Shown: piece by piece, positions 3,538 through 50,472 of the stretch
Numbering within the stretch: position 1 is the first letter of the stretch
Layout of the letters: the number at the start of each line of letters is the position of its first letter
NCBI RefSeq assembly: GCF_014138045.1
Contig: NZ_JACGXA010000001.1
Location: forward strand, 1,237,501-1,301,500
Reading direction: 5' to 3'
Length of the DNA stretch: 64,000 bases
From: Nocardioides ginsengisegetis
GTDB taxonomy: Bacteria > Actinomycetota > Actinomycetes > Propionibacteriales > Nocardioidaceae
The notes under the pieces: generated by a model
Told to the model about the DNA's origin: nothing
Seen by the model: the letters and a program-made list of their open reading frames with translations, nothing else
The model's database searches: none
Program-made: the position numbers and the translations under genes

Positions 3538-4859
3538 AGGCGGGGGAGCCGCAGCACGAACAGCGCCCCGCCGGCGGGGGAGGCCCCCTCGGCGAGGAGT
3601 ACGTCGCCCCCGACAGAGCGCGCCACCCGACGGGCGATGCCCAGCCCCAGGCCGGTGCCTCCGCCCGGGCCCGCGGCGCCGGCGTCGAAGACGGCCTCGC
3701 GCACGGTCGGGTCGACGCCGGGGCCGTCGTCGCCGACCCGGACCTCGACGCCGGCCGGGTGCACCGCGACGTCGAGGGACACGGCCGAGCGGGCGTGCCG
3801 GACGGCGTTCTCGACGACCGGGGAGAGGGCCCGGACCACGAGGTCGCGCGGGGCCGCGACCCGGACCCCGTCGGGGCCTGCGGTGCGGGCCAGCGCGAGC
3901 TCGCCGGGCACGAGCGGGACGACCGCGTCGACCACGTCGCCGAGCAGGCAGGTCGCGGTGCTCTGGACCGCCTCGGGCTCGCGGGCCAGGTCGAGGAGGG
4001 TCGTGATGGTGACGGCCATGGCCCGTGAGGCGAGCGCGATCTGCTCGAGGTCCTCCCGGACGTCGTCGCTGACCTCGCCACGCATCAGGGCGAGGTCGGC
4101 CGAGCCCTGGATCGCCGCGAGGGGGGTCCGCAGCTCGTGGGCGAGCTCCGAGGTCAGCCGTTGCTCGGCCCGGATCGTCATCGCGACGCGTTCGAGCAGA
4201 CCGTCCAGAGTGTTGCCCAGGGCCGCGATCTCGTTGGTCGACGGGCCGAGCTCGAACCGCCGACCGAGGTCGTGCTCGCTCCAGTCGGTGGCCCGGTCGG
4301 CCATCTGGACCACCGGCGCCAGCGCCCGGTTGGTGACCCAGCGCGCGATCAGGCCGCTGGCGATGAGCACGATCAGGCCGATCGCGATGCAGGCGAACAT
4401 GACGAACCGGCCCGCGCGCTCGTAGGGCGCCAGCGGCTCGCTCACGATCACGACACCGGAGACGCCGGAGCCGGTCGTGAACGGCTGGGCGCGCAGGCGG
4501 GCGCGCTCGCCGATCCGGGTGTAGGTGGTCGTCGTGACGGTGGTCAGCGGCAGCAGGTGCTCGGTGGAGACCGTGGCGAGGTCGCCGGCGACGCGGTGGC
4601 CGTGGGCGTCGTACACGGCGACGCCGGGCTCGAGGACCTCGGCGGGCACCGTGAGGGTGGACCCGGAGGCCGAGTCGACCGCGGCGACGACGGCGTCGTT
4701 GCGCTCCTCGAGCAGGGTGTTGATGGTGTTCTCGGTGGTCTGGTGGAGCAGCAGCTGGATGCCGAACGTCACCGCGACCATGCCGAGCGCGATCAGCGCC
4801 ATCGTGGAGAACACGATCTGGGTGCGGAAGGACGCGTGGCGCCAGCGGCTCGTGATCAC
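3534..4859 (-). CDS. Two-component sensor histidine kinase
   Basis: A 441-residue membrane sensor kinase. The N-terminus has a transmembrane helix (residues 16-36), an extracellular segment of about 120 residues, a second helix near residues 155-175, a HAMP linker, then a HisKA domain with the phospho-accepting histidine in SELAHELRTPL (about residue 240). A HATPase domain follows with ENAVRHA (N box), GDDGPGVD (G1) and GTGLGLGIARR (G2). The GTG start overlaps the TGA stop of the response regulator by 3 bases, so translation is coupled. It probably phosphorylates that regulator. The signal is unknown. Confidence 0.92.
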   Translation of the reverse strand: MITSRWRHASFRTQIVFSTMALIALGMVAVTFGIQLLLHQTTENTINTLLEERNDAVVAAVDSASGSTLTVPAEVLEPGVAVYDAHGHRVAGDLATVSTEHLLPLTTVTTTTYTRIGERARLRAQPFTTGSGVSGVVIVSEPLAPYERAGRFVMFACIAIGLIVLIASGLIARWVTNRALAPVVQMADRATDWSEHDLGRRFELGPSTNEIAALGNTLDGLLERVAMTIRAEQRLTSELAHELRTPLAAIQGSADLALMRGEVSDDVREDLEQIALASRAMAVTITTLLDLAREPEAVQSTATCLLGDVVDAVVPLVPGELALARTAGPDGVRVAAPRDLVVRALSPVVENAVRHARSAVSLDVAVHPAGVEVRVGDDGPGVDPTVREAVFDAGAAGPGGGTGLGLGIARRVARSVGGDVLLAEGASPAGGALFVLRLPRL

Positions 4860-7266: not shown

Positions 7267-8171
7267 GCACCGTCGGCACCGCGGTGGCCTCCGTGGACGA
7301 GGCGCTGCCGCAGATGCAGGAGCTCGCCTCCCGCCTGTGGACCCGGTCCGCACGTCACCACCCGGGCCAGCTGGCCTGGTCCGCCCGCTATGGCCTCGAC
7401 CTCGGACACGGCCCGGTCGCGCTGTTCCGGGTGGCGGGCGAGCTCGTGGGCTGGGCGTGGGCGGAGGCCGACGACTGGCTGGAGCTGTGCGTCGACCCCG
7501 CGCACCCGGATGTCGTCGACGACGCGGCCGGCTGGTTCCTGGACCGGGCACCGGCGGGTCCGTTGCGCACGATGACGCTGGAGACGGAGACCGGGGTGCT
7601 CGCGGGCCTGTCGCGGGCCGGCTTCGAGGTGGAGGACCAGCCCTGGTTCACCCACCACCACCTCGACCTCACGGCGTTGCGCGACGTGCCGCCCGTGCCC
7701 GGCTACACGCTGCGCCACGTGGAGCCCTCGGAGCACGAGGAGCGGGCCGCGTGCCACCGGGCCGCCTGGGCGGCTCCGGGCGGGACGAGCCGGGTGTCGG
7801 CTGCGGCGTACGCCGGGTTGATGGCGACGCCGCCCTACCGCCACGAGCTGGACTGGGTGGCGGTCACCGCCGAGGGCGAGATGGTGGCGTCCTGCCTGGT
7901 CTGGCTGGACCCGGGCACGGGCGTGGCGCTCGTCGAGCCCGTCGGCTGCGCACCCGACCACCGAGGACGTGGCCTGGCCGGAGCCGTCAGCCTGGCGGCC
8001 CTGCACGCCGCGCGGGACGCCGGGGCGAGCCTCGGCCTCGTCTGTCCTCGGGGCGACGACGACCACCCGGTGCCCGGGCGCGTCTACCGCGCGCTGGGCT
8101 TCGAGCCGGGGCCGCGGACGCTCACCTTGAGGTTCGGATCCCCAACCTCTGGAGACTTGTCGGCATCTTGA
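7263..8171 (+). CDS. GNAT family N-acetyltransferase
   Basis: A 302-residue protein with two GNAT-like halves. The C-terminal half carries the acetyl-CoA loop VGCAPDHRGRGLAGA (the R-x-x-G-x-G/A motif) and ends with VYRALGFEPGPRTLTL, typical of GNAT beta-6/7. The N-terminal half is more diverged. GTG at 7263 overlaps the stop of the upstream aldolase-like gene, which suggests coupled translation and perhaps a linked pathway. The acceptor is unknown. Its last bases overlap the conserved motif at 8155-8172 described separately. Confidence 0.82.
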   Translation: MSTVGTAVASVDEALPQMQELASRLWTRSARHHPGQLAWSARYGLDLGHGPVALFRVAGELVGWAWAEADDWLELCVDPAHPDVVDDAAGWFLDRAPAGPLRTMTLETETGVLAGLSRAGFEVEDQPWFTHHHLDLTALRDVPPVPGYTLRHVEPSEHEERAACHRAAWAAPGGTSRVSAAAYAGLMATPPYRHELDWVAVTAEGEMVASCLVWLDPGTGVALVEPVGCAPDHRGRGLAGAVSLAALHAARDAGASLGLVCPRGDDDHPVPGRVYRALGFEPGPRTLTLRFGSPTSGDLSAS

Positions 8172-8172
8172 G
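8155..8172. promoter_or_regulatory. Candidate operator upstream of the SipW locus (copy 1)
   Basis: ACTTGTCGGCATCTTGAG, with CTTG half-sites 11 bases apart, matches 14 of 18 positions of the site at 10894-10911 beside the response regulator gene. It lies about 106 bases before the CalY-like gene and overlaps the stop of the acetyltransferase gene. Binding by the local OmpR-type regulator is an inference. Confidence 0.45.
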
Positions 8173-8278
8173 CAAACCCCGAGGGAATCCCGGCCGGTCC
8201 CTTGAAGGGAGCCCTGCAGAGTTCTGGTCATCAAGGAAATGACCAGCCGGACAGCTGGTCCTGATCAAAGGAACAGCA

Positions 8279-8908
8279 ATGGCTACCTCCCTCCTGAGCA
8301 CCACCACCGCCAAGGTCCTGGCGTCCGTCGTCCTCGTCGGTGGAGCCGCCTCCGTCGCCGGCCTCGGCACCTTCGGCTCGTTCACCTCGAGCACCTCGGC
8401 CAGCGCCAACGTCACCTCCGGTGTCGTCCAGCTGGGTCTGAACCAGGGCGCGGTGGCCACCACCGTGGCCGCCACCCAGGTCCTCCCGGGTGACACGATC
8501 CAGCGGGCCGTCACGCTGACCCGCTCCGCGGGCACCGAGTCCTTCGGCTCGGTCAAGATGACCACCAGCACCAGCACCCCGAACCTGCTCACGAGCGACG
8601 CCACCAACGGCCTGCAGCTCGCGATCGACAGCTGCTCGGTCGCCTGGACCAAGGGCGCGTCGGACAACTCGCTCTCCTGCTCCGGCACGACCACCTCCGT
8701 CCTGGCCTCCCGCGCCGTCATCGGCACCAACCTCGACCTGGCCGCGGCCACCACGGCCCTCAACGCCAACGCCGGCAGCGCCGGCGCGGTCAACCTGCGC
8801 CTGTCGATGGTGCTGCCGACCGCTGCCGACAACACGTTCCAAGGCCTCACCAACGCCGTGACGTTCACCTTCGACGCCACGCAGAAGGCCACCGCCACCT
8901 ACCGGTGA
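8279..8908 (+). CDS. SipW-dependent exported protein, TasA/CalY-like
   Basis: A 209-residue exported protein. The N-terminus (residues 10-35) is a hydrophobic signal ending GLGTFGSFTSSTSASANVTSG, the pattern of SipW-type signal peptides, in which cleavage is followed by a Phe/Trp and Ser/Thr-rich start of the mature chain. The mature part is Ala/Thr/Ser-rich with predicted beta structure, as in TasA and camelysin, which form surface fibres or matrix components in Bacillus. An A-rich ribosome site (AAAGGAAC) precedes the ATG. The dedicated peptidase gene is next, separated by a strong hairpin. Fibre formation here is only an inference from the family. Confidence 0.8.
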   Translation: MATSLLSTTTAKVLASVVLVGGAASVAGLGTFGSFTSSTSASANVTSGVVQLGLNQGAVATTVAATQVLPGDTIQRAVTLTRSAGTESFGSVKMTTSTSTPNLLTSDATNGLQLAIDSCSVAWTKGASDNSLSCSGTTTSVLASRAVIGTNLDLAAATTALNANAGSAGAVNLRLSMVLPTAADNTFQGLTNAVTFTFDATQKATATYR

Positions 8909-8916
8909 CCCAGACC

Positions 8917-8954
8917 CCCGTGGGGTCGCCTGACCGAGCAGGCGACCCCACGGG
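8917..8954 (+). terminator. Terminator or attenuator hairpin between CalY-like gene and sipW
   Basis: A perfect 16-base stem (CCCGTGGGGTCGCCTG with its complement) and a 6-base loop lie 8 bases after the CalY-like stop, followed by CTCGTTGTCT. It probably ends most transcripts and allows partial read-through into sipW, giving much substrate and little peptidase. Confidence 0.75.
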
Positions 8955-9016
8955 CTCGTTGTCTCCCCGCCGCACACCCCGCCAACTCCCCGTCCGACCC
9001 AGAACAGGAGCAGACC

Positions 9017-9730
9017 ATGAGCCACACCGTTGCCAGCGCCGGACGCCACCGCGTCGAGGCTCCCGCTCCGTCGGCCGCGCGTCCCTCCTGGGGTCGCCGG
9101 ATCGGGCACTGGGTGGCCAACGGCGTCCTGCTCGTCTGCGTGCTGGCGTTCTTCGCCATCGCGCTCGGCCCGCACCTCTTCGGCTACCGCACCGCGACGA
9201 TGCTCACCGGCTCGATGGAGCCGGGGATCATGCCGGGTGACGTGGTCGTGACGGTGCCCAAGCCGACCAGCGAGCTGAAGGTCGGCGACGTGATCAGCTA
9301 CCAGATCCCGATCGAGGACCACCGGGTGGAGACCCACCGGGTGACCAAGATCGTCCGGGGCAAGGACGGCTCGACCACGATCGTGACCAAGGGTGACAAC
9401 AACCCGAACGTCGACCCCTGGACCGCGACGCTGAGCGACGACACCGTGTGGGAGGCACGGGCAGTCGTCCCCAAGCTCGGCACCGCGATCCGCGTCCTCC
9501 GCACGCCGGCTGTCCGGCACGGCGTGTTCTGGTTCGCCTTCGGCGGACTGATCCTCCTCGGCCTCACGCTGATCTGGGGCAAGGAGGAGGAGGGCGCGGA
9601 AGGGGGCAACGACCCCAGTGACACCAGGGGGGACACCGCCGGGGACGCCGCCGGGGACGCCGACGGCACCGACTCGGACGACGACCACGCGCAGCCCAGC
9701 CACGAGCACGAGGAGGTCGTCGCCGCATGA
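9017..9730 (+). CDS. sipW: Signal peptidase I, SipW (ER-type)
   Basis: A 237-residue membrane-bound signal peptidase of family S26, SipW type. One transmembrane helix lies near residues 35-55. The catalytic serine is in MLTGSMEPGIMPGDVV (about residue 74) and the ER-type histidine replaces the usual lysine in HRVETHRVTKI. KGDNN follows. A second helix near residue 170 precedes a highly acidic tail rich in Gly, Asp and Glu. SipW removes the special signals of TasA-like proteins, so the flanking exported proteins are likely substrates. Its stop overlaps the ATG of the next gene (ATGA). Confidence 0.9.
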   Translation: MSHTVASAGRHRVEAPAPSAARPSWGRRIGHWVANGVLLVCVLAFFAIALGPHLFGYRTATMLTGSMEPGIMPGDVVVTVPKPTSELKVGDVISYQIPIEDHRVETHRVTKIVRGKDGSTTIVTKGDNNPNVDPWTATLSDDTVWEARAVVPKLGTAIRVLRTPAVRHGVFWFAFGGLILLGLTLIWGKEEEGAEGGNDPSDTRGDTAGDAAGDADGTDSDDDHAQPSHEHEEVVAA

Positions 9731-10110
9731 GCGAGACCCTGCACCCAGCGCACCCGACGCCCCCGGCCTTCGACGCCAGCGCGCTGGCCCGCCTCGCCAG
9801 CGAGGTGGACGACACGACGTACCCGACGGTCTTCGCGACCCGCTACCAGTCCATGCTTCCCCAGCGCGTCGGCCGGATCGCCGAGGCCCTGGGATGCGCC
9901 GACCTCGAGGTCGCCCTCGACGCGGTGCTCAGCCTTCGGGTCTCCTCGACCACGGTCGGCACCTGCGAGCTGGCCGAGATCGCCGGCGACATCGAGGCGA
10001 GCGTCCGCCGCGAGGACCTGGCCTCGGCCCGGATGTCGGCTCGCCGGCTCGCGGTCGTGGCCTCCCGGGCGCACCTCGCGCTCGGCGGCTACCTCGCCGC
10101 CGCGGTCTGA
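9727..10110 (+). CDS. Hpt-like protein lacking the phospho-histidine
   Basis: A 127-residue soluble protein translationally coupled to sipW through an ATGA overlap. Its layout fits a histidine phosphotransfer (Hpt) domain: a pre-helix with FDASALARLASEV, a long central helix, then DAVLSLRVSSTTVGTCELAEIAGDIE, which aligns with the family pattern AHxLKGSSxxxGxxxLxxxxxxLE. At the place of the phospho-accepting histidine there is leucine, and the conserved Gly is Val. If the match is right it cannot relay phosphate and may instead dock onto the nearby response regulator. The assignment is by pattern only. Confidence 0.55.
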   Translation: MSETLHPAHPTPPAFDASALARLASEVDDTTYPTVFATRYQSMLPQRVGRIAEALGCADLEVALDAVLSLRVSSTTVGTCELAEIAGDIEASVRREDLASARMSARRLAVVASRAHLALGGYLAAAV

Positions 10111-10133
10111 CGCCGTCTCGTCCCCAGCGTCAG
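10107..10133. terminator. Weak hairpin between converging genes
   Basis: A 7-base stem CTGACGC/GCGTCAG with a 13-base loop spans the stop codons of the Hpt-like gene and the converging response regulator gene. It is a possible bidirectional terminator, weaker than the others in this window. Confidence 0.35.
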
Positions 10134-10876
10134 CTGGGTGCCTCCATGCGGTAGCCCACGCCCCGCACGGTGCGGATGAGCTTGGCCGCGCCGGGGCCCT
10201 CGCCCAGCTTGCGACGCAGGTTGCCGATGTGCACCTCGACGAGGTGGGTGTCGGTGGCCCACTCGGTGTCCCAGACAGAGCGCAGCAGCGCCTCGCGGGT
10301 CCAGACCCGGGCAGGGGTGCGCATCAGCTCGGTCAGCAGGTCGAACTCGGTGCGGGTCAGCGTCAGCTCGCTGTCGTCCTGGAAGGCCCGGCGGCCGTCG
10401 ACGTCGACGGTGAGGGTGCCGTGGCGCAGCACTTCGTGCTCGGGCTCGGCCGCGACGTGGTTGTTGACCGGGACGGCGACCGTCTGCGGGCCGCGGCGCG
10501 GCCGGCGGAACATCGCGTTGACGCGGGCCTTGAGCTCGCGGGGGCTGAACGGCTTGGACAGGAAGTCGTCGGCGCCGGTCTCCAGCCCGATCAGCTTCTC
10601 CACCTCGTCGTCGCGCGCGGTGATCATCACGACGTAGGCGTCGGAGATCTCGCGGATGCGACGGCAGGCCTCGATGCCGTCGATGCCGGGCAGGCCGAGG
10701 TCCAGGGTGACCAGGTCCGGGTCGTGGTCGCGCACCGCGTCGACGCCGGCCAGACCGGAGTCGACGGTCATGACGGAGAAGCCCTGCGTCGAGAGCGTGA
10801 ACTCGATGAGGGAGCGGATGTCCTCGTCGTCCTCGACGACGAGGGCCTTCCGGTCTTCTCCCGAGCTCGTTGACAT
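10130..10876 (-). CDS. OmpR-family response regulator of the SipW locus
   Basis: A 248-residue response regulator. The receiver domain has VVEDDEDI, the acceptor aspartate in VTLDLGLPG and the KPFSP lysine. A linker (about residues 125-145) leads to a winged-helix domain ending RRKLGEGPGAAKLIRTVRGVGYRM. No histidine kinase gene lies beside it, so it is an orphan in this window. It converges on the Hpt-like gene and is divergent from the exported protein gene at 10956. The start MSTSSGED is placed just before the receiver domain. Regulation of the flanking secretion genes is inferred from position and shared motifs. Confidence 0.9.
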   Translation of the reverse strand: MSTSSGEDRKALVVEDDEDIRSLIEFTLSTQGFSVMTVDSGLAGVDAVRDHDPDLVTLDLGLPGIDGIEACRRIREISDAYVVMITARDDEVEKLIGLETGADDFLSKPFSPRELKARVNAMFRRPRRGPQTVAVPVNNHVAAEPEHEVLRHGTLTVDVDGRRAFQDDSELTLTRTEFDLLTELMRTPARVWTREALLRSVWDTEWATDTHLVEVHIGNLRRKLGEGPGAAKLIRTVRGVGYRMEAPS

Positions 10877-10893
10877 GTGCACATGGTGCCAGA

Positions 10894-10911
10894 ACTTGCC
10901 GCTTTCTTGAG
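10894..10911. promoter_or_regulatory. Candidate operator in the divergent promoter (copy 2)
   Basis: ACTTGCCGCTTTCTTGAG sits between the regulator start (10876) and the exported protein start (10956). CTTG half-sites recur at 10895 and 10906, with looser copies near 10916 and 10928. It matches the site at 8155-8172 at 14 of 18 positions. Confidence 0.45.
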
Positions 10912-10955
10912 GTTGCTTCGGGTCCCGCTTGAATCCGTTTCGAAAGACTGGGGGC

Positions 10956-11417
10956 ATGACCAGCCTCGACCTCAGCCGCCGCGCGGCCACGGTGCTGCTG
11001 GTCGCTGCCCTCGTGGTCCTGACGCCGGGCCTGGCCCTCGCCCGTTTCAGCGCGTCCAGCTCGGCGCCAGCACAGTCCGTCGGCACCGCCGTCCTGGTGG
11101 CCCCGACGAGCGTCACCGGCACCTACCAGTGCACCAGCAGCGGCGGCACCGAGGGCGTCTCGGTGACGGTCAGCGGCTTCACCGACACCGGCCCCGCGGG
11201 ATCGTCGTACGCCGTGACGGTGACCAGCGAGGACGGCCCGAGCAACTCCTCGACCTCCACGGCGCACACCCGCACCGTCTCGGTGTCGCAGACGAACGAC
11301 AAGGCGTCGACGAAGTACACCGTCTCGATCCGCTCGGTCTACAGCAACTGGACCGGACCACTGTGGTCGAAGGTCGTGTCGTGCACGAAGGGCTCCACCA
11401 ACTCCGGCTCCCTCTGA
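10956..11417 (+). CDS. Small exported protein with SipW-type signal
   Basis: A 153-residue exported protein. Residues 8-28 form a hydrophobic signal followed by ALARFSASSSAPAQSVGT, which resembles the A-x-F-(S/T)-rich junction of SipW-dependent substrates. The mature part is Ser/Thr-rich (over a third) with beta-strand-like alternation and two cysteines, near residue 50 and near the C-terminus (VVSCTKG), that could form a disulfide. ATG at 10956 gives the cleanest signal; a TTG at 10929 is in frame. It is divergent from the response regulator. No functional family is recognised. Confidence 0.65.
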   Translation: MTSLDLSRRAATVLLVAALVVLTPGLALARFSASSSAPAQSVGTAVLVAPTSVTGTYQCTSSGGTEGVSVTVSGFTDTGPAGSSYAVTVTSEDGPSNSSTSTAHTRTVSVSQTNDKASTKYTVSIRSVYSNWTGPLWSKVVSCTKGSTNSGSL

Positions 11418-11420
11418 CAG

Positions 11421-11569
11421 GTCGAATCGGGACTTCCAGTCACTCGAATCGGGAGTTGTGACCACTCGAATCGGGGCTTTCCGCCAATGCCCTCGCGCCC
11501 GGCTGACCTGAAGTCCCGACTCACGTGACGAGAAATACCGACTCGAGTGACGGGAAGTCCCGATTCAAC
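11421..11569. repeat. 22-base-period inverted repeat array
   Basis: Six diverged copies of a unit like TCGAATCGGGACTTCC. Three forward copies begin at 11422, 11444 and 11466, and three inverted copies have their CCGA cores at 11515, 11537 and 11559. Both arms have an exact 22-base period and surround a spacer of about 30 bases. The RNA could fold into a long imperfect hairpin. It begins 4 bases after the stop of the exported protein gene and may end its transcript, or be a family of chromosomal repeat. Confidence 0.75.
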
Positions 11570-11606
11570 CCCCCTTCAGCGGCGGTTCAGGCTGCCTTCA
11601 GCGGGC
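11564..11606 (+). promoter_or_regulatory. 11-base tandem half-sites upstream of secreted protein gene
   Basis: TTCA occurs at 11564, 11575, 11586 and 11597, exactly 11 bases apart. The three 11-base units from 11574 are CTTCAGCGGCG, GTTCAGGCTGC and CTTCAGCGGGC. This spacing is typical of OmpR/PhoB/PhoP-class operators, and the half-site is near the actinobacterial PHO-box GTTCACC. The gene it could control starts at 11647. Confidence 0.5.
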
Positions 11607-11646
11607 ACGCGGCATCCTCGGGTGACCCCTCGAGGAAGGACCTCCC

Positions 11647-12411
11647 GTGAAGACCCTGACCATCGCCTCCCTGTGCCTGGCGAGCGCGGCCTCCGCAGCC
11701 GCCGTCACGACCGGCGTTGCCGCGTCCGGAGCAGCGCCCGTGACCGCGGCCGCACCGCACAACGTCACTCACCACGCGGCTCCCGCCGCCGTCGACCCGG
11801 GCGCGTTCGCGACGTCGAAGCCCAACCCCTACTTCCCGCTGAAGCCCGGCACCGTGGTCCGCTACCGCGGCGTCGACGAGGGGGAGCGGCTGACCGAGCG
11901 GCTCACGGTCACCCACGACACCAAGATGATCCAGGGCGTGAAGACGCGGGTCATCCACGACGTCGTCTTCCGTGCCGACGGCTCGGTCGCCGAGCGGACG
12001 CGTGACTGGTACGCCGCGGACCAGGACGGCAACGTCTGGTACTTCGGCGAGAACACCGCGACGTACGACGAGCACGGCAACGTCGACTCCCGCGAGGGGT
12101 CGTGGCGGGCCGGGCGCGACGGCGCGCGGGCCGGGATCATCATGCCGGCGCACCCCCGCCCGACCGACGCCTACCGCCAGGAGTTCCTCCGCGGGCACGC
12201 CGAGGACCAGGCCTGGATCGTCCAGAACGACGCGACGGTGCGGGTCGCCGGCCACCGCTACACCTCGGTCGTGCGCAGCTTCGAGTGGTCGCGGCTGGAG
12301 AAGTCGGTCGTGTCGGTGAAGTACTACGCCCAGGGCGTCGGCATCGTCACCGAGCAGGACCTCGCCGGCGGCAGCGAGAAGTTCGAGGCCGTGGCGGTCA
12401 CCCACCCGTAG
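11647..12411 (+). CDS. Secreted protein of unknown function
   Basis: A 254-residue exported protein starting at GTG with GAGGAAGGA a few bases upstream. A signal peptide (residues 1-25, ending ASAAAVTTGVAASGAAP) is followed by an Ala-rich spacer and a folded domain beginning NPYFPLKPGTVVRYRG. The repeated pattern of charged and aromatic strands (TRVIHDVVFRADGSVAERTRDWYAADQDGNVWYFGE) suggests a beta-sheet lipocalin-like or LolA-like fold, but I do not recognise a named family. The 11-base half-sites upstream suggest control by a response regulator, possibly that of the SipW locus. Confidence 0.7.
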   Translation: MKTLTIASLCLASAASAAAVTTGVAASGAAPVTAAAPHNVTHHAAPAAVDPGAFATSKPNPYFPLKPGTVVRYRGVDEGERLTERLTVTHDTKMIQGVKTRVIHDVVFRADGSVAERTRDWYAADQDGNVWYFGENTATYDEHGNVDSREGSWRAGRDGARAGIIMPAHPRPTDAYRQEFLRGHAEDQAWIVQNDATVRVAGHRYTSVVRSFEWSRLEKSVVSVKYYAQGVGIVTEQDLAGGSEKFEAVAVTHP

Positions 12412-47286: not shown

Positions 47287-50200
47287 ATGCGGGACCATCT
47301 GGGCATGGAGCTGCGCGACCGGGACGACGACGCGGCCACGGGGAAGCTCGAGGACTGGGTGCTCCGTGCGGTGCCCGACGGCCTCTGGGTCATCGGCCCC
47401 GACGGCGCCACGACGTACGCCAACGACCAGCTGGCGCGGATGCTGGGCCTGGCCGACGACGAGGTCCTCGGTTTCTCGGCCTTCGACGCCCTCGACGCCG
47501 AGGGCGGCGAGCAGCTGCGCGAGCACCTCGCCCGGCTGGAGGTCTCCCGGGAGCCGGGCGCCGACCTGGAGTGCCTCTTGCGCCGCCGGGACGGCTCGGA
47601 GTTCTGGGCGCTGGTCAGCCACACGCCGCTCGTCGACCACCGCGGGGAGCACCAGGCGTGGCTGCACCGGGTGCGCGACCACTCGGCCCAGCGCCGGATC
47701 TTCGAGGAGCTCGAGCGCCGCGAGGTCCAGCTCGCCGAGGCCCAGGCCATCGCCCGGATCGGCAGCTGGGAGCGCGACGTCGGTGAGGGCGTCCTGCGGT
47801 GGTCCGACGAGCTCTACCGCGTCTTCGGGCTCGACCCGCAGACGTTCGTGCCGTCCCCCGAGTCGTTCTTCGAGCTGCTCCACCCCGACGACCGGGCCGC
47901 GGCCCACCAGACGTACGCCGAGCTCCAGAACGGGAGCCAGCCCGTGGAGACCATCGAGATGGACTCCCGGCTGGACCGGCCGCTCGGGGAGCCGGCGCGC
48001 TGGGTCCGCACCCGGGGCGTCGTGGTCCGGGACGAGACCGGAGCCATCATCCGCACCGGCGGCACCGTGCAGGACGTGACCGACAGCAAGGAGGCCGAGC
48101 TGGGGCTGGCGTTCCTCGGCGCGATGGCGGGGGCCGCGAACGAGGCCTCCACCCTCGAGGAGGCGCTGCTCGCCGCGGACACCGTGGTGCGCCCCTTCAC
48201 CCAGTGGCCCGCCGTGCTCGTGTCCGTCCCGGACCCGGGGACGCCCGGCAGCCTGGTGCACGTCGAGGCGGGCTGGGCCGGCACCACCGAGGAGCAGTTG
48301 GCGGAGGCGCGGGCCCTCGCCGTCCGCGCCGCCGACGAGCGCCGCGTGGTGCAGCAGGTCGGCTCCGACGGCACCCACCTCGTGGCCGGGCCGGCGCTCG
48401 TGGGCGAGCGCCTGGCCTGCGTGATCACCTCCAGCACCCGTGCCGCGACCCCGCCGCGCCCGTCCGAGCTGTCGATCTTCCGACAGATGCTGACCCTGCT
48501 GGCCCACGTCTCCGAGCGTGAGGAGGGCGGCAAGGAGCTGGCCACGGCACGCGACGAGGCGCTGGCCGCCTCCCGCGCGAAGTCGGACTTCCTGGCGACG
48601 ATGAGCCACGAGATCCGGACGCCGCTCAACGGCGTGATCGGCCTCAGCGAGCTGCTCAGCCGGACCGAGCTGACCGCCCACCAGCGCCGGCTCGCCCAGG
48701 GCGTCGACCAGGCCGGCCGCACCCTGCTCGCGCTCGTCAACGACATCCTCGACCTGTCCAAGATCGAGGCCGGGCGGCTCGACCTCGAGGAGGTCGACTT
48801 CGACCCGCGCGCCATCCTCGAGCAGAGCGTCGGCCTGGTCTCGGACCGGGCCAGCCGCAAGGGGCTGGAGCTCGTGGTCTCCAGCGCCGGCCAGATGCCC
48901 TCGATGGTCCGCGGCGATCCCGTCCGCTTCGGGCAGGTGATCACCAACCTCGTCGCCAACGCCGTGAAGTTCACCCACGCGGGCGAGGTCGTGGTGCGGG
49001 CCCGTGGGGATGGCGACGGGTCGACGGTGCGCGTCGAGGTCTCCGACACCGGCATCGGGATCGAGCCGGAGGTGCAGCGGCGCCTGTTCACGGCGTTCTC
49101 ACAGGCCGACAGCTCCACCACCCGCCGCTACGGCGGCACCGGGCTCGGCCTGGCCATCAGCCAGCGGATCGTGGCAGCCATGGCCGGGGAGATCGGTGTC
49201 GAGAGCGCTGCGGGTGCGGGCAGCACCTTCTGGTTCACGGCGGCGTTCGGGCCGGCCACCCTGCAGCAGCCGCCCACCGAGCAGGCCCTGCGGGAGGCCG
49301 TGGCTGGGCTGCGGGTGCTCGTCGTCGACGACAACGCCACCAACCGCTTCATCCTCTGCGAGCAGCTCGAGGCCTGGCAGGTCGAGGTGACCGCGGTCGA
49401 GTCGTCGTACGAGGCCCTCGTCGAGCTCGACGCCTCCGCCCGCGGGGCCGCGCCGTACGACGTCGCCCTGCTCGACTACATGATGCCGGGCGCCGACGGT
49501 GAGCAGCTCGCACGGATCATCCGGTCGGAGGAGCGGCACCGCGGGCTGCGACTCGCGCTGCTGTCCTCGTCGCTGGAGCCCGGCCCGGAGTGGCTCGCGA
49601 GCGCGGGCATCGACAGCTTCCTGGGCAAGCCCGTGCTGCCGTCGCGGCTCCTCGACCTGCTCGCCACGCTCGGCGGCCGGCTGGATCCGGGGCAGGCCGT
49701 GACGCCGGTCGTGACCCGCCCGGTGTCGGGCGCCGCGCGCGGTCGGCTGCTGGTCGTGGAGGACAACCCGGTCAACCAGATGGTGGCCGAGGGCGTGCTC
49801 GGCGCGCTCGGCTACGACGTCGTGCTGGCCGACAACGGCGCCGCCGGCGTCTCCGCGCTCGCCGACGACCCCGACGGCTTCGACGCGATCCTGATGGACT
49901 GCCAGATGCCGGTGATGGACGGCTTCGACGCCACCCGCGCGGTCCGGGCGATGAGCGGTGACGGCGCGCGCATCCCGATCATCGCGATGACCGCGGCCGC
50001 GACCGGCGAGGAGCGCGAGCGTTGCCTCGACGCCGGCATGGACGACTTCCTGACCAAGCCCGTCGTGCCCGACGTCATCGAGGCCACCCTGGCGCGCTGG
50101 GTGCACCCCACCGACGTACGCCGCGGCTCCACGGCCGCCCGTCGCCTGCACGAGCTCGTCGAGCGCGACGGCATCGACGCCTCGCTCGTGCGCCGCATGG

Positions 50201-50472
50201 TGGACCGCTTCGGCGACTCGGCCACCCAGGCGGCCCGGGCGCTCGCCGCAGCCGTGCGGGCGGGCGACGCCGAGGAGGTCGTGCGGGTCGCCCACGGGCT
50301 GCGGGGGAGCGCGGCCAACCTCGGACTGCTCGACCTGGCCGAACGGTGCGCGACGCTGGAGGAGCACGCCCGCGGCGGGTCGGTGCCCGCCGCCGCCCAG
50401 GCCGCCGAGGTGTCCGACGCGGTGGTCGTCGGCATCGCCGAGCTCACCGAGGCCGTCCGCGACCTGCCGTAA
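47287..50472 (+). CDS. Hybrid sensor histidine kinase with two receiver domains and Hpt
   Basis: A 1061-residue phosphorelay protein without clear transmembrane helices. In order: PAS (about 15-130), PAS_3 (about 135-260, WERDVGEGVLRWSDELYRVFGLDP), GAF-like (about 270-400), HisKA with FLATMSHEIRTPLNGVIGLSEL (His441), HATPase (about 540-660), a receiver with LLDYMMPG (Asp730), a second receiver with LMDCQMPVMDGFDATRA (Asp871), and an Hpt domain with AHGLRGSAANLG (His1003). The start is ATG 47287 or 47305. The order resembles BarA/ArcB-type kinases. Its final response regulator is not adjacent. Confidence 0.92.
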   Translation: MRDHLGMELRDRDDDAATGKLEDWVLRAVPDGLWVIGPDGATTYANDQLARMLGLADDEVLGFSAFDALDAEGGEQLREHLARLEVSREPGADLECLLRRRDGSEFWALVSHTPLVDHRGEHQAWLHRVRDHSAQRRIFEELERREVQLAEAQAIARIGSWERDVGEGVLRWSDELYRVFGLDPQTFVPSPESFFELLHPDDRAAAHQTYAELQNGSQPVETIEMDSRLDRPLGEPARWVRTRGVVVRDETGAIIRTGGTVQDVTDSKEAELGLAFLGAMAGAANEASTLEEALLAADTVVRPFTQWPAVLVSVPDPGTPGSLVHVEAGWAGTTEEQLAEARALAVRAADERRVVQQVGSDGTHLVAGPALVGERLACVITSSTRAATPPRPSELSIFRQMLTLLAHVSEREEGGKELATARDEALAASRAKSDFLATMSHEIRTPLNGVIGLSELLSRTELTAHQRRLAQGVDQAGRTLLALVNDILDLSKIEAGRLDLEEVDFDPRAILEQSVGLVSDRASRKGLELVVSSAGQMPSMVRGDPVRFGQVITNLVANAVKFTHAGEVVVRARGDGDGSTVRVEVSDTGIGIEPEVQRRLFTAFSQADSSTTRRYGGTGLGLAISQRIVAAMAGEIGVESAAGAGSTFWFTAAFGPATLQQPPTEQALREAVAGLRVLVVDDNATNRFILCEQLEAWQVEVTAVESSYEALVELDASARGAAPYDVALLDYMMPGADGEQLARIIRSEERHRGLRLALLSSSLEPGPEWLASAGIDSFLGKPVLPSRLLDLLATLGGRLDPGQAVTPVVTRPVSGAARGRLLVVEDNPVNQMVAEGVLGALGYDVVLADNGAAGVSALADDPDGFDAILMDCQMPVMDGFDATRAVRAMSGDGARIPIIAMTAAATGEERERCLDAGMDDFLTKPVVPDVIEATLARWVHPTDVRRGSTAARRLHELVERDGIDASLVRRMVDRFGDSATQAARALAAAVRAGDAEEVVRVAHGLRGSAANLGLLDLAERCATLEEHARGGSVPAAAQAAEVSDAVVVGIAELTEAVRDLP

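Follow-up and report, generated by a model that had tools for sequence, protein, structure and literature searches.

The window analysed here, a 64-kb stretch of the 4.46-Mb genome of Nocardioides ginsengisegetis, carries a compact unit of five genes in the order tasA-like, sipW, pseudo-hpt, response regulator (RR) and exp2 (8279-11417; with its sites the unit spans 8156-11417). Our subject is this unit, and above all the pair formed by the pseudo-Hpt, an Hpt-like protein devoid of the phospho-histidine, and the OmpR-type RR encoded opposite to it. The pseudo-hpt and RR genes are convergent, with stops 19 bp apart, and RR and exp2 are divergent, with starts 79 bp apart. The features of the unit are as follows:

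8156..8204, + strand: predicted RR operator 5' of tasA, with CTTG at 8156 and 8167 (11-bp step) and a third CTTG at 8201
8216..8232, + strand: GCAGAGTTCTGGTCATC box, common to tasA upstream regions
8279..8908, + strand: TasA/camelysin-like exported protein, 209 amino acids (aa), with matches to PF12389 and to TasA profiles from the PDB
9017..9730, + strand: SipW, signal peptidase I of the endoplasmic reticulum (ER) type, 237 aa, with two hydrophobic segments (33-51 and 169-187)
9727..10110, + strand: pseudo-Hpt, 127 aa, with Leu at the phospho-His position and Val four residues later (H+4); ATGA overlap with sipW
10130..10876, - strand: OmpR-type RR, 248 aa, phosphorylation residues intact
10895..10931, + strand: predicted RR operator in the RR/exp2 gap, with CTTG at 10895 and 10906 and a third CTTG at 10928
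10956..11417, + strand: exp2, exported protein with an FN3-like domain and a SipW-like signal, 153 aa

The tasA-like product matched the Pfam M73 camelysin family (PF12389) above its cut-off (E 5e-11), and a profile made from 12 relatives matched the first part of Bacillus subtilis TasA (8aur, E 2.4e-4; 5of1, E 1e-3). SipW scored above the cut-off of the NCBIfam model TIGR02228 (E 2e-19) and reached E 5e-16 with the Bacillus SipW equivalog model, yet below that model's cut-off. Its S66 (GSM) and H107 (ETHRV) were unchanged in 6/6 orthologues, and the arrangement of this His is that of the ER-type peptidases. Since the protein has two hydrophobic segments and, by SipW topology, an outside catalytic domain, a cytosolic location is predicted for its tail and hence for the pseudo-Hpt. 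The exp2 product starts with a hydrophobic segment followed by A-x-A-x-F...VGTA, and its structure model has an FN3-like fold. No TapA-like gene was found between 8279 and 11417. An earlier note, made from these letters without database searches, had already named a TasA/CalY-like exported protein, an ER-type SipW peptidase, a coupled Hpt-like protein without the phospho-histidine, an OmpR-type regulator on the opposite strand and a second exported protein with a SipW-like signal, and our analysis agrees with each of these assignments. Judged from their sequences, the window genes probably form an export unit of the SipW/TasA kind, in which SipW would process the exported proteins and fibres may be made. 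Note that three further matches to SipW-type peptidases, 33-36% identical, lie elsewhere in the same genome (C1:1424957-1427245 and 2834479-2834892).

The test set beforehand for the unit was its co-occurrence in relatives. Among 58 genomes, N. ginsengisegetis included, five others encode a close SipW (49-60% identity), and four of these five carry tasA, sipW, the hpt-like gene, the convergent RR and exp2 with the order kept; tasA is present there in one to four copies (by hidden Markov model), and the RR is 70-77% identical to that of the window. The fifth, G008, lacks the hpt-like gene but has RR, sipW and tasA. This synteny upholds the proposal, made in the earlier note, of an actinobacterial SipW/TasA-type export unit with its own regulator. 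A profile of five pseudo-Hpts was then run on 215 genomes of the genus and matched in 75 of them at E <=0.01; at E <1e-15 there were 60 places in 53 genomes, and the weaker matches were mostly Hpt domains inside kinase-sized frames. In the class-wide search the profile matched 53/394 genomes, 12 of them of the same genus (N. ginsengisegetis included). From here on we use 65 loci: the 60 genus places, window included, and five loci, each from a different genome, that represent two other families (L142-L146). In 61/65 loci a convergent RR is found no more than 840 bp from the pseudo-Hpt domain, in four of these with a tasA copy sitting between pseudo-hpt and RR, and sipW is present in 36/65. The conserved core is the pair of pseudo-Hpt and RR, which persists without SipW in 29/65 loci. 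Thus the five-gene set stood, but the unit as first described had to be widened around this core, which sometimes lies beside a histidine kinase.

The surroundings of the pair were inspected by eye from the sequence. A GAF-type kinase is encoded close to the RR in L114, L122 and L125, and in the loci from the two other families a kinase lies in the same stretch as the pair; this stretch also has type-II-secretion/Tad-like genes in L142, and in L146 a gene like those for prepilin peptidases. A glutamine synthetase gene and a glnE-like gene are frequent neighbours of the SipW-less Nocardioides loci. In a tree of 69 RR rows, obtained by a quick search and containing several long branches, a minimum of five to six changes of the SipW label is required on branches with a Shimodaira-Hasegawa-like approximate likelihood ratio (SH-aLRT) support of at least 95. 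Two loci, L119 (in G111) and L120 (in G162), have tasA and pseudo-hpt with neither sipW nor RR; the genes that come next resemble those for a ROK regulator and an ABC binding protein.

On its own, the pseudo-Hpt of the window matched Pfam Hpt below the cut-off (E 0.049); 62/65 family members matched Pfam Hpt at E <=0.1, the best at 1.4e-9. An AlphaFold2 model built from the 65 sequences has the four-helix Hpt fold (predicted local distance difference test, pLDDT, 96), and its best PDB matches are HptB (7c1i; template modelling, TM, score 0.83) and a Shewanella Hpt (3myf). The phospho-His column is occupied by Leu in 65/65 sequences and the next residue is Ser in 65/65; Lys or Arg stands at H+3 in 64/65 and Gly at H+10 in 65/65. 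At H+4, Gly occurs in none of the 65, its place being taken by Val (45), Thr (9), Ala (5), Ser (4) or Asn (2). Profile alignment puts the conserved columns onto the His, Ser, Lys and Gly of Pseudomonas aeruginosa HptB, and in a control set of seven weaker Hpt matches the His is kept in six. Since the fold is kept and the His is gone, the pseudo-Hpt cannot carry out the Hpt reaction at the usual site. In yeast Ypd1, according to excerpts of PMC6341664, substitutions at H+4 nearly abolish phosphotransfer and lower the affinity for the receiver only modestly, results which fit docking without chemistry.

The RR consists of a receiver and a Trans_reg_C winged helix (Pfam), and its best NCBIfam match is MtrA, at 219.6 bits against a cut-off of 300. 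The acidic pocket, D59 and K108 are unchanged in 58/58 aligned sequences, an alignment that leaves out L144, L145 and the truncated L169. Since the phosphorylation residues are kept, the RR need not itself be independent of phosphorylation. That this regulator takes its signal by docking rather than by phosphorelay is the best reading of a family that has lost the His in every member studied. As a possible cognate kinase we tried the GAF kinase of L114, which gave 31 matches in the N. ginsengisegetis genome (best E 4e-32 at 37% identity), only general kinase matches with no partner among them, and this candidate was dropped. The intact RR residues, and the kinases that adjoin the pair in some relatives, could mean that this is a two-component regulator of the ordinary sort, its kinase encoded next door or elsewhere, with the pseudo-Hpt as a decaying leftover. 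However, decay would not fix Leu, Ser and the Gly at H+10 in 65/65 sequences across families, and the gene stays with the RR in 61/65 loci, so that we give this explanation very little credence; a kinase for the RR would equally fit an RR with a dead phosphotransfer partner.

The distribution of the pair beyond these loci was followed in a scan of named genomes, queried with the RR alignment because the 65-row pseudo-Hpt alignment was too variable, and the counts refer to the best 80 of 585 relatives. A pseudo-hpt gene lies near 6/7 of the nearest RRs (53-70% identical; Nocardioides and Arthrobacter), the exception being a Jatrophihabitans contig with no pseudo-hpt nearby. Of the 15 loci that come next (L181-L195, largely from Arthrobacter and its kin), 10 have it, at some kilobases from the RR in L185 and L186, and it was found near none of the 57 most distant RRs (L197-L253). 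In L196 a His-bearing Hpt lies about 5 kb from the RR. These counts bear on another explanation, in which the partners of the pseudo-Hpt are hybrid kinases, for which it would compete with canonical Hpts, and not the adjacent RR. The genome does encode four canonical Hpts, within open frames of 912-2201 aa, and the plant pseudo-HPt AHP6 acts by competition. Against this, the gene travels with one RR subfamily, and we judge competition for other partners unlikely. A canonical Hpt domain is present in the window, at about 50197-50457, in a 1133-aa open frame that also matches a kinase domain.

The link between pseudo-Hpt and SipW is closer than adjacency. In the window the sipW stop and the pseudo-hpt start share 4 nt (ATGA), and in 9/65 loci (L110, L131, L133, L135, L136, L156, L158, L159 and L161) both lie in a single stop-free frame, with the pseudo-Hpt placed after the second hydrophobic segment of SipW. 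The Arthrobacter locus L180 likewise has one SipW/pseudo-Hpt frame, as does L179 across a masked stretch; in L178 the frame ahead of pseudo-hpt is not SipW. These fusions point to an input from SipW, by its amount or its state, into the RR loop. The overlap and the fusions would also be seen if the pseudo-Hpt were mainly a subunit of SipW, serving its stability, place or activity, with an ordinary RR next door that it does not touch, and L110 and L158, which keep the pseudo-Hpt with SipW and have no RR near, speak for this. Yet 29/65 loci keep the pseudo-Hpt without SipW, mostly with the RR, and it has the fold and the surface motif of proteins that dock on an RR. A role mainly as a SipW subunit is improbable in our view.

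The 11-bp repeat CTTGn7CTTG, with a half-site of the form CTTGAGg, was counted 100 times over the 566 kb of the 65 loci, whereas ten shuffles gave 4.3 on average. When the spacer of CTTG-n-CTTG was varied, lengths out of codon phase gave 0-5 occurrences and the codon-phase spacers 5, 8, 11 and 14 gave 29, 48, 48 and 34, which we read as codon-phase repeats inside genes. An 11-bp direct-repeat step is also the spacing of PhoB boxes. Of the 100 elements, 95 are on the strand of a module gene and at most 330 bp upstream of it, and one is on the opposite strand. The element stands before exp2 in 32/33 loci, before a tasA in 28/33 and, in the SipW-less loci, before pseudo-hpt in 16/29 (17/29 at any distance). 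Since the sites precede pseudo-hpt even where SipW is missing, the pseudo-Hpt is most likely a feedback partner of the RR. In the 64-kb window there are just two elements (8156-8170 and 10895-10909), before tasA and exp2; 0.30 were expected, and two or more occurred in 4/100 shuffles. Moreover, 9 of the 20 genomes with a SipW-less RR locus have another SipW-type peptidase (E <=1e-20; 11 places), and the element is found in 5/11 of these unlinked SipW gene clusters. In pseudo-Hpt-free genomes (G008 excluded) it was seen at 1/19 distinct SipW-type places, mostly scanned over short stretches, and in G008, which has the RR and no pseudo-Hpt, it is present before tasA. Taken together, the unlinked clusters, the 1/19 and the G008 tasA indicate that the element follows the RR. 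The box at 8216-8232 belongs to a second motif, AGAGTTCTG, which occurs in 21/50 tasA and 6/36 sipW upstream regions, never on the other strand, and was found in 0/55 RR and 0/33 exp2 upstream regions.

Elements were also noticed beside other genes. In the N. ginsengisegetis genome, L274 (C1:1384500-1393500) has at position 3576 a near-consensus element, CTTGAGGGTTTCTTGAGG, by a STAS-like gene and a 702-aa kinase-like open reading frame (ORF), and elements adjoin similar genes in L289 and L295; the L274 element possibly marks a further target or a partner. In L275 (C1:644500-652500), four CTTG half-sites at 11-bp steps are found at position 2978, before a 301-aa exported-looking protein. L292 (in G085) has two near-identical sigma-factor-like genes, each downstream of a CTTGAGGA-TCCTTGA element. 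A genome-wide regulon could not be drawn from the motif alone, which is unusable for this without conservation.

We consider it fairly probable that the locus is a Nocardioides SipW/TasA-type surface-matrix export unit under a dedicated RR with a dead phosphotransfer partner. In this model, the RR would bind the CTTG half-sites that stand in tandem at an 11-bp step, both ahead of tasA-sipW-pseudo-hpt and between RR and exp2, a binding predicted from site conservation, and would turn on the TasA-like subunit, the accessory FN3 protein exp2 and the maturing peptidase SipW. The pseudo-Hpt would dock on the RR receiver as an Hpt does, neither accepting nor donating phosphate at the usual site, and would close a feedback loop as an anti-response-regulator. 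Where it is coupled in translation to SipW or fused to the predicted cytosolic tail of SipW, it may make the activity of the RR depend on how much export machinery there is or on its state. The docking itself, its negative sign, the coupling to secretion and the fibres are all presumed here. More tentatively, and with somewhat less than even confidence, we propose a bacterial class of anti-response-regulators: dead Hpts that would bind one OmpR-type RR, be made under its sites and, in SipW loci, be tethered to the cytosolic SipW tail, so that the secretion machine holds or releases a matrix transcription factor.

Several observations weigh against the dedicated RR with its dead partner. G008 has RR, sipW and tasA but no pseudo-hpt; conversely, the pseudo-Hpt has no nearby RR in L110, L119, L120 and L158. 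The Arthrobacter relative L186, outside the 65, has Gly and not Leu at the His position. In 12/29 SipW-less loci pseudo-hpt has no element within 330 bp, and another four SipW places, unlinked to the RR in genomes that bear one and scanned over short stretches only, lack it too, which makes 5/15 overall. Genome-wide, the form with three half-sites occurs 8 times, against 11 for the reversed control. Finally, the loci are related, so that the counts are not independent.

Downstream of exp2 lie two features outside the unit:

11420..11570, no strand: array of a dispersed 22-nt repeat, with three copies in one orientation and three inverted
11647..12411, + strand: exp3, exported-looking protein, family unassigned, without Pfam match

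The earlier note had counted the exp3 product as a third exported protein of the unit, behind 11-base half-sites. This ORF has a signal-like start, adjoins exp2 on the same strand and does have tandem 11-bp repeats upstream, as would be seen if a wider unit held exp3 and its half-sites in the same regulon. However, tblastn gave no match to exp3 in the five syntenic loci (L039-L043), and exp3 was rejected as a member. The repeats are real, but they are TTCA at 11-bp steps (about 11564-11600, in two 22-nt copies) and not the CTTG sites that mark the unit; moreover, the dispersed repeat separates exp3 from exp2. Membership of exp3 in the regulon is thus most unlikely. As an exp3-specific operator the 22-nt repeats were discarded as well, because the 12-nt core of the array is dispersed (8 sites in 6 genome places, the others on C1 near 236.5, 2145, 2700.8, 3410.9 and 3730.8 kb) and 11420-11570 gives a long hairpin when folded, much more stable than the shuffles (z -7.2). 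The TTCA half-sites are perhaps sites of another OmpR-type regulator. By eye, an array built like that at 11420-11570 but with a different unit lies in L040 near 9300-9500, and in L164 a CTTCAG repeat resembling the TTCA half-sites lies upstream of the RR.

In the portions of open-licence PMC articles covered by our literature search, which is no proof of absence, we found no SipW unit from actinobacteria that has a partner of this sort and no bacterial pseudo-HPt family like this one; excerpts of PMC11481889 and PMC3842833, on unusual bacterial Hpts, do not describe such a pseudo-Hpt. The export part is of the SipW/TasA kind, already known, and it is for the pseudo-Hpt/RR pair, the site pattern and the SipW fusion that no description was found in the literature. 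If the proposal is true, it would offer a physical route for the regulatory role ascribed to SipW in Bacillus, a cytosolic peptidase tail bearing a regulator-docking domain, and would show that in bacteria, as in plants, phosphotransfer domains that are dead can be retained as lasting partners of response regulators. Because the DNA site is defined and the target genes are few, the idea is directly testable.

As occurs in the B. subtilis tapA-sipW-tasA operon, a TasA/camelysin-type subunit and an ER-type SipW are encoded together in the Nocardioides unit, where, unlike in Bacillus, no TapA was found and an FN3-like exp2 is present instead. A second, regulatory role has been described for B. 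subtilis SipW (Terra et al. 2012, as cited in the excerpted texts of PMC4238804 and PMC9486643), which the proposed SipW/pseudo-Hpt/RR mechanism would parallel. The Bacillus operon is controlled by SinR/SinI and Spo0A, according to excerpts of PMC4238804, whereas the Nocardioides unit has an OmpR-type RR and a pseudo-Hpt that is sometimes fused to SipW. With HptB and Ypd1 the pseudo-Hpt shares the four-helix Hpt fold and Lys or Arg at H+3, but all 65 members lack both the His and the Gly at H+4. The plant AHP6 is a pseudo-HPt of the cytokinin pathway, in which Asn replaces the His. It resembles our family in being an Hpt without phospho-His beside intact response regulators, and differs from it in that the pseudo-Hpt has Leu at the His position, one dedicated neighbour RR, shared DNA sites and a SipW fusion. 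Finally, the RR is like other OmpR/PhoB-type regulators in its receiver and winged helix, and its predicted sites are direct repeats with the 11-bp step of PhoB boxes; it would stand apart from them by its predicted CTTGAGg half-site and its putative pseudo-Hpt partner.

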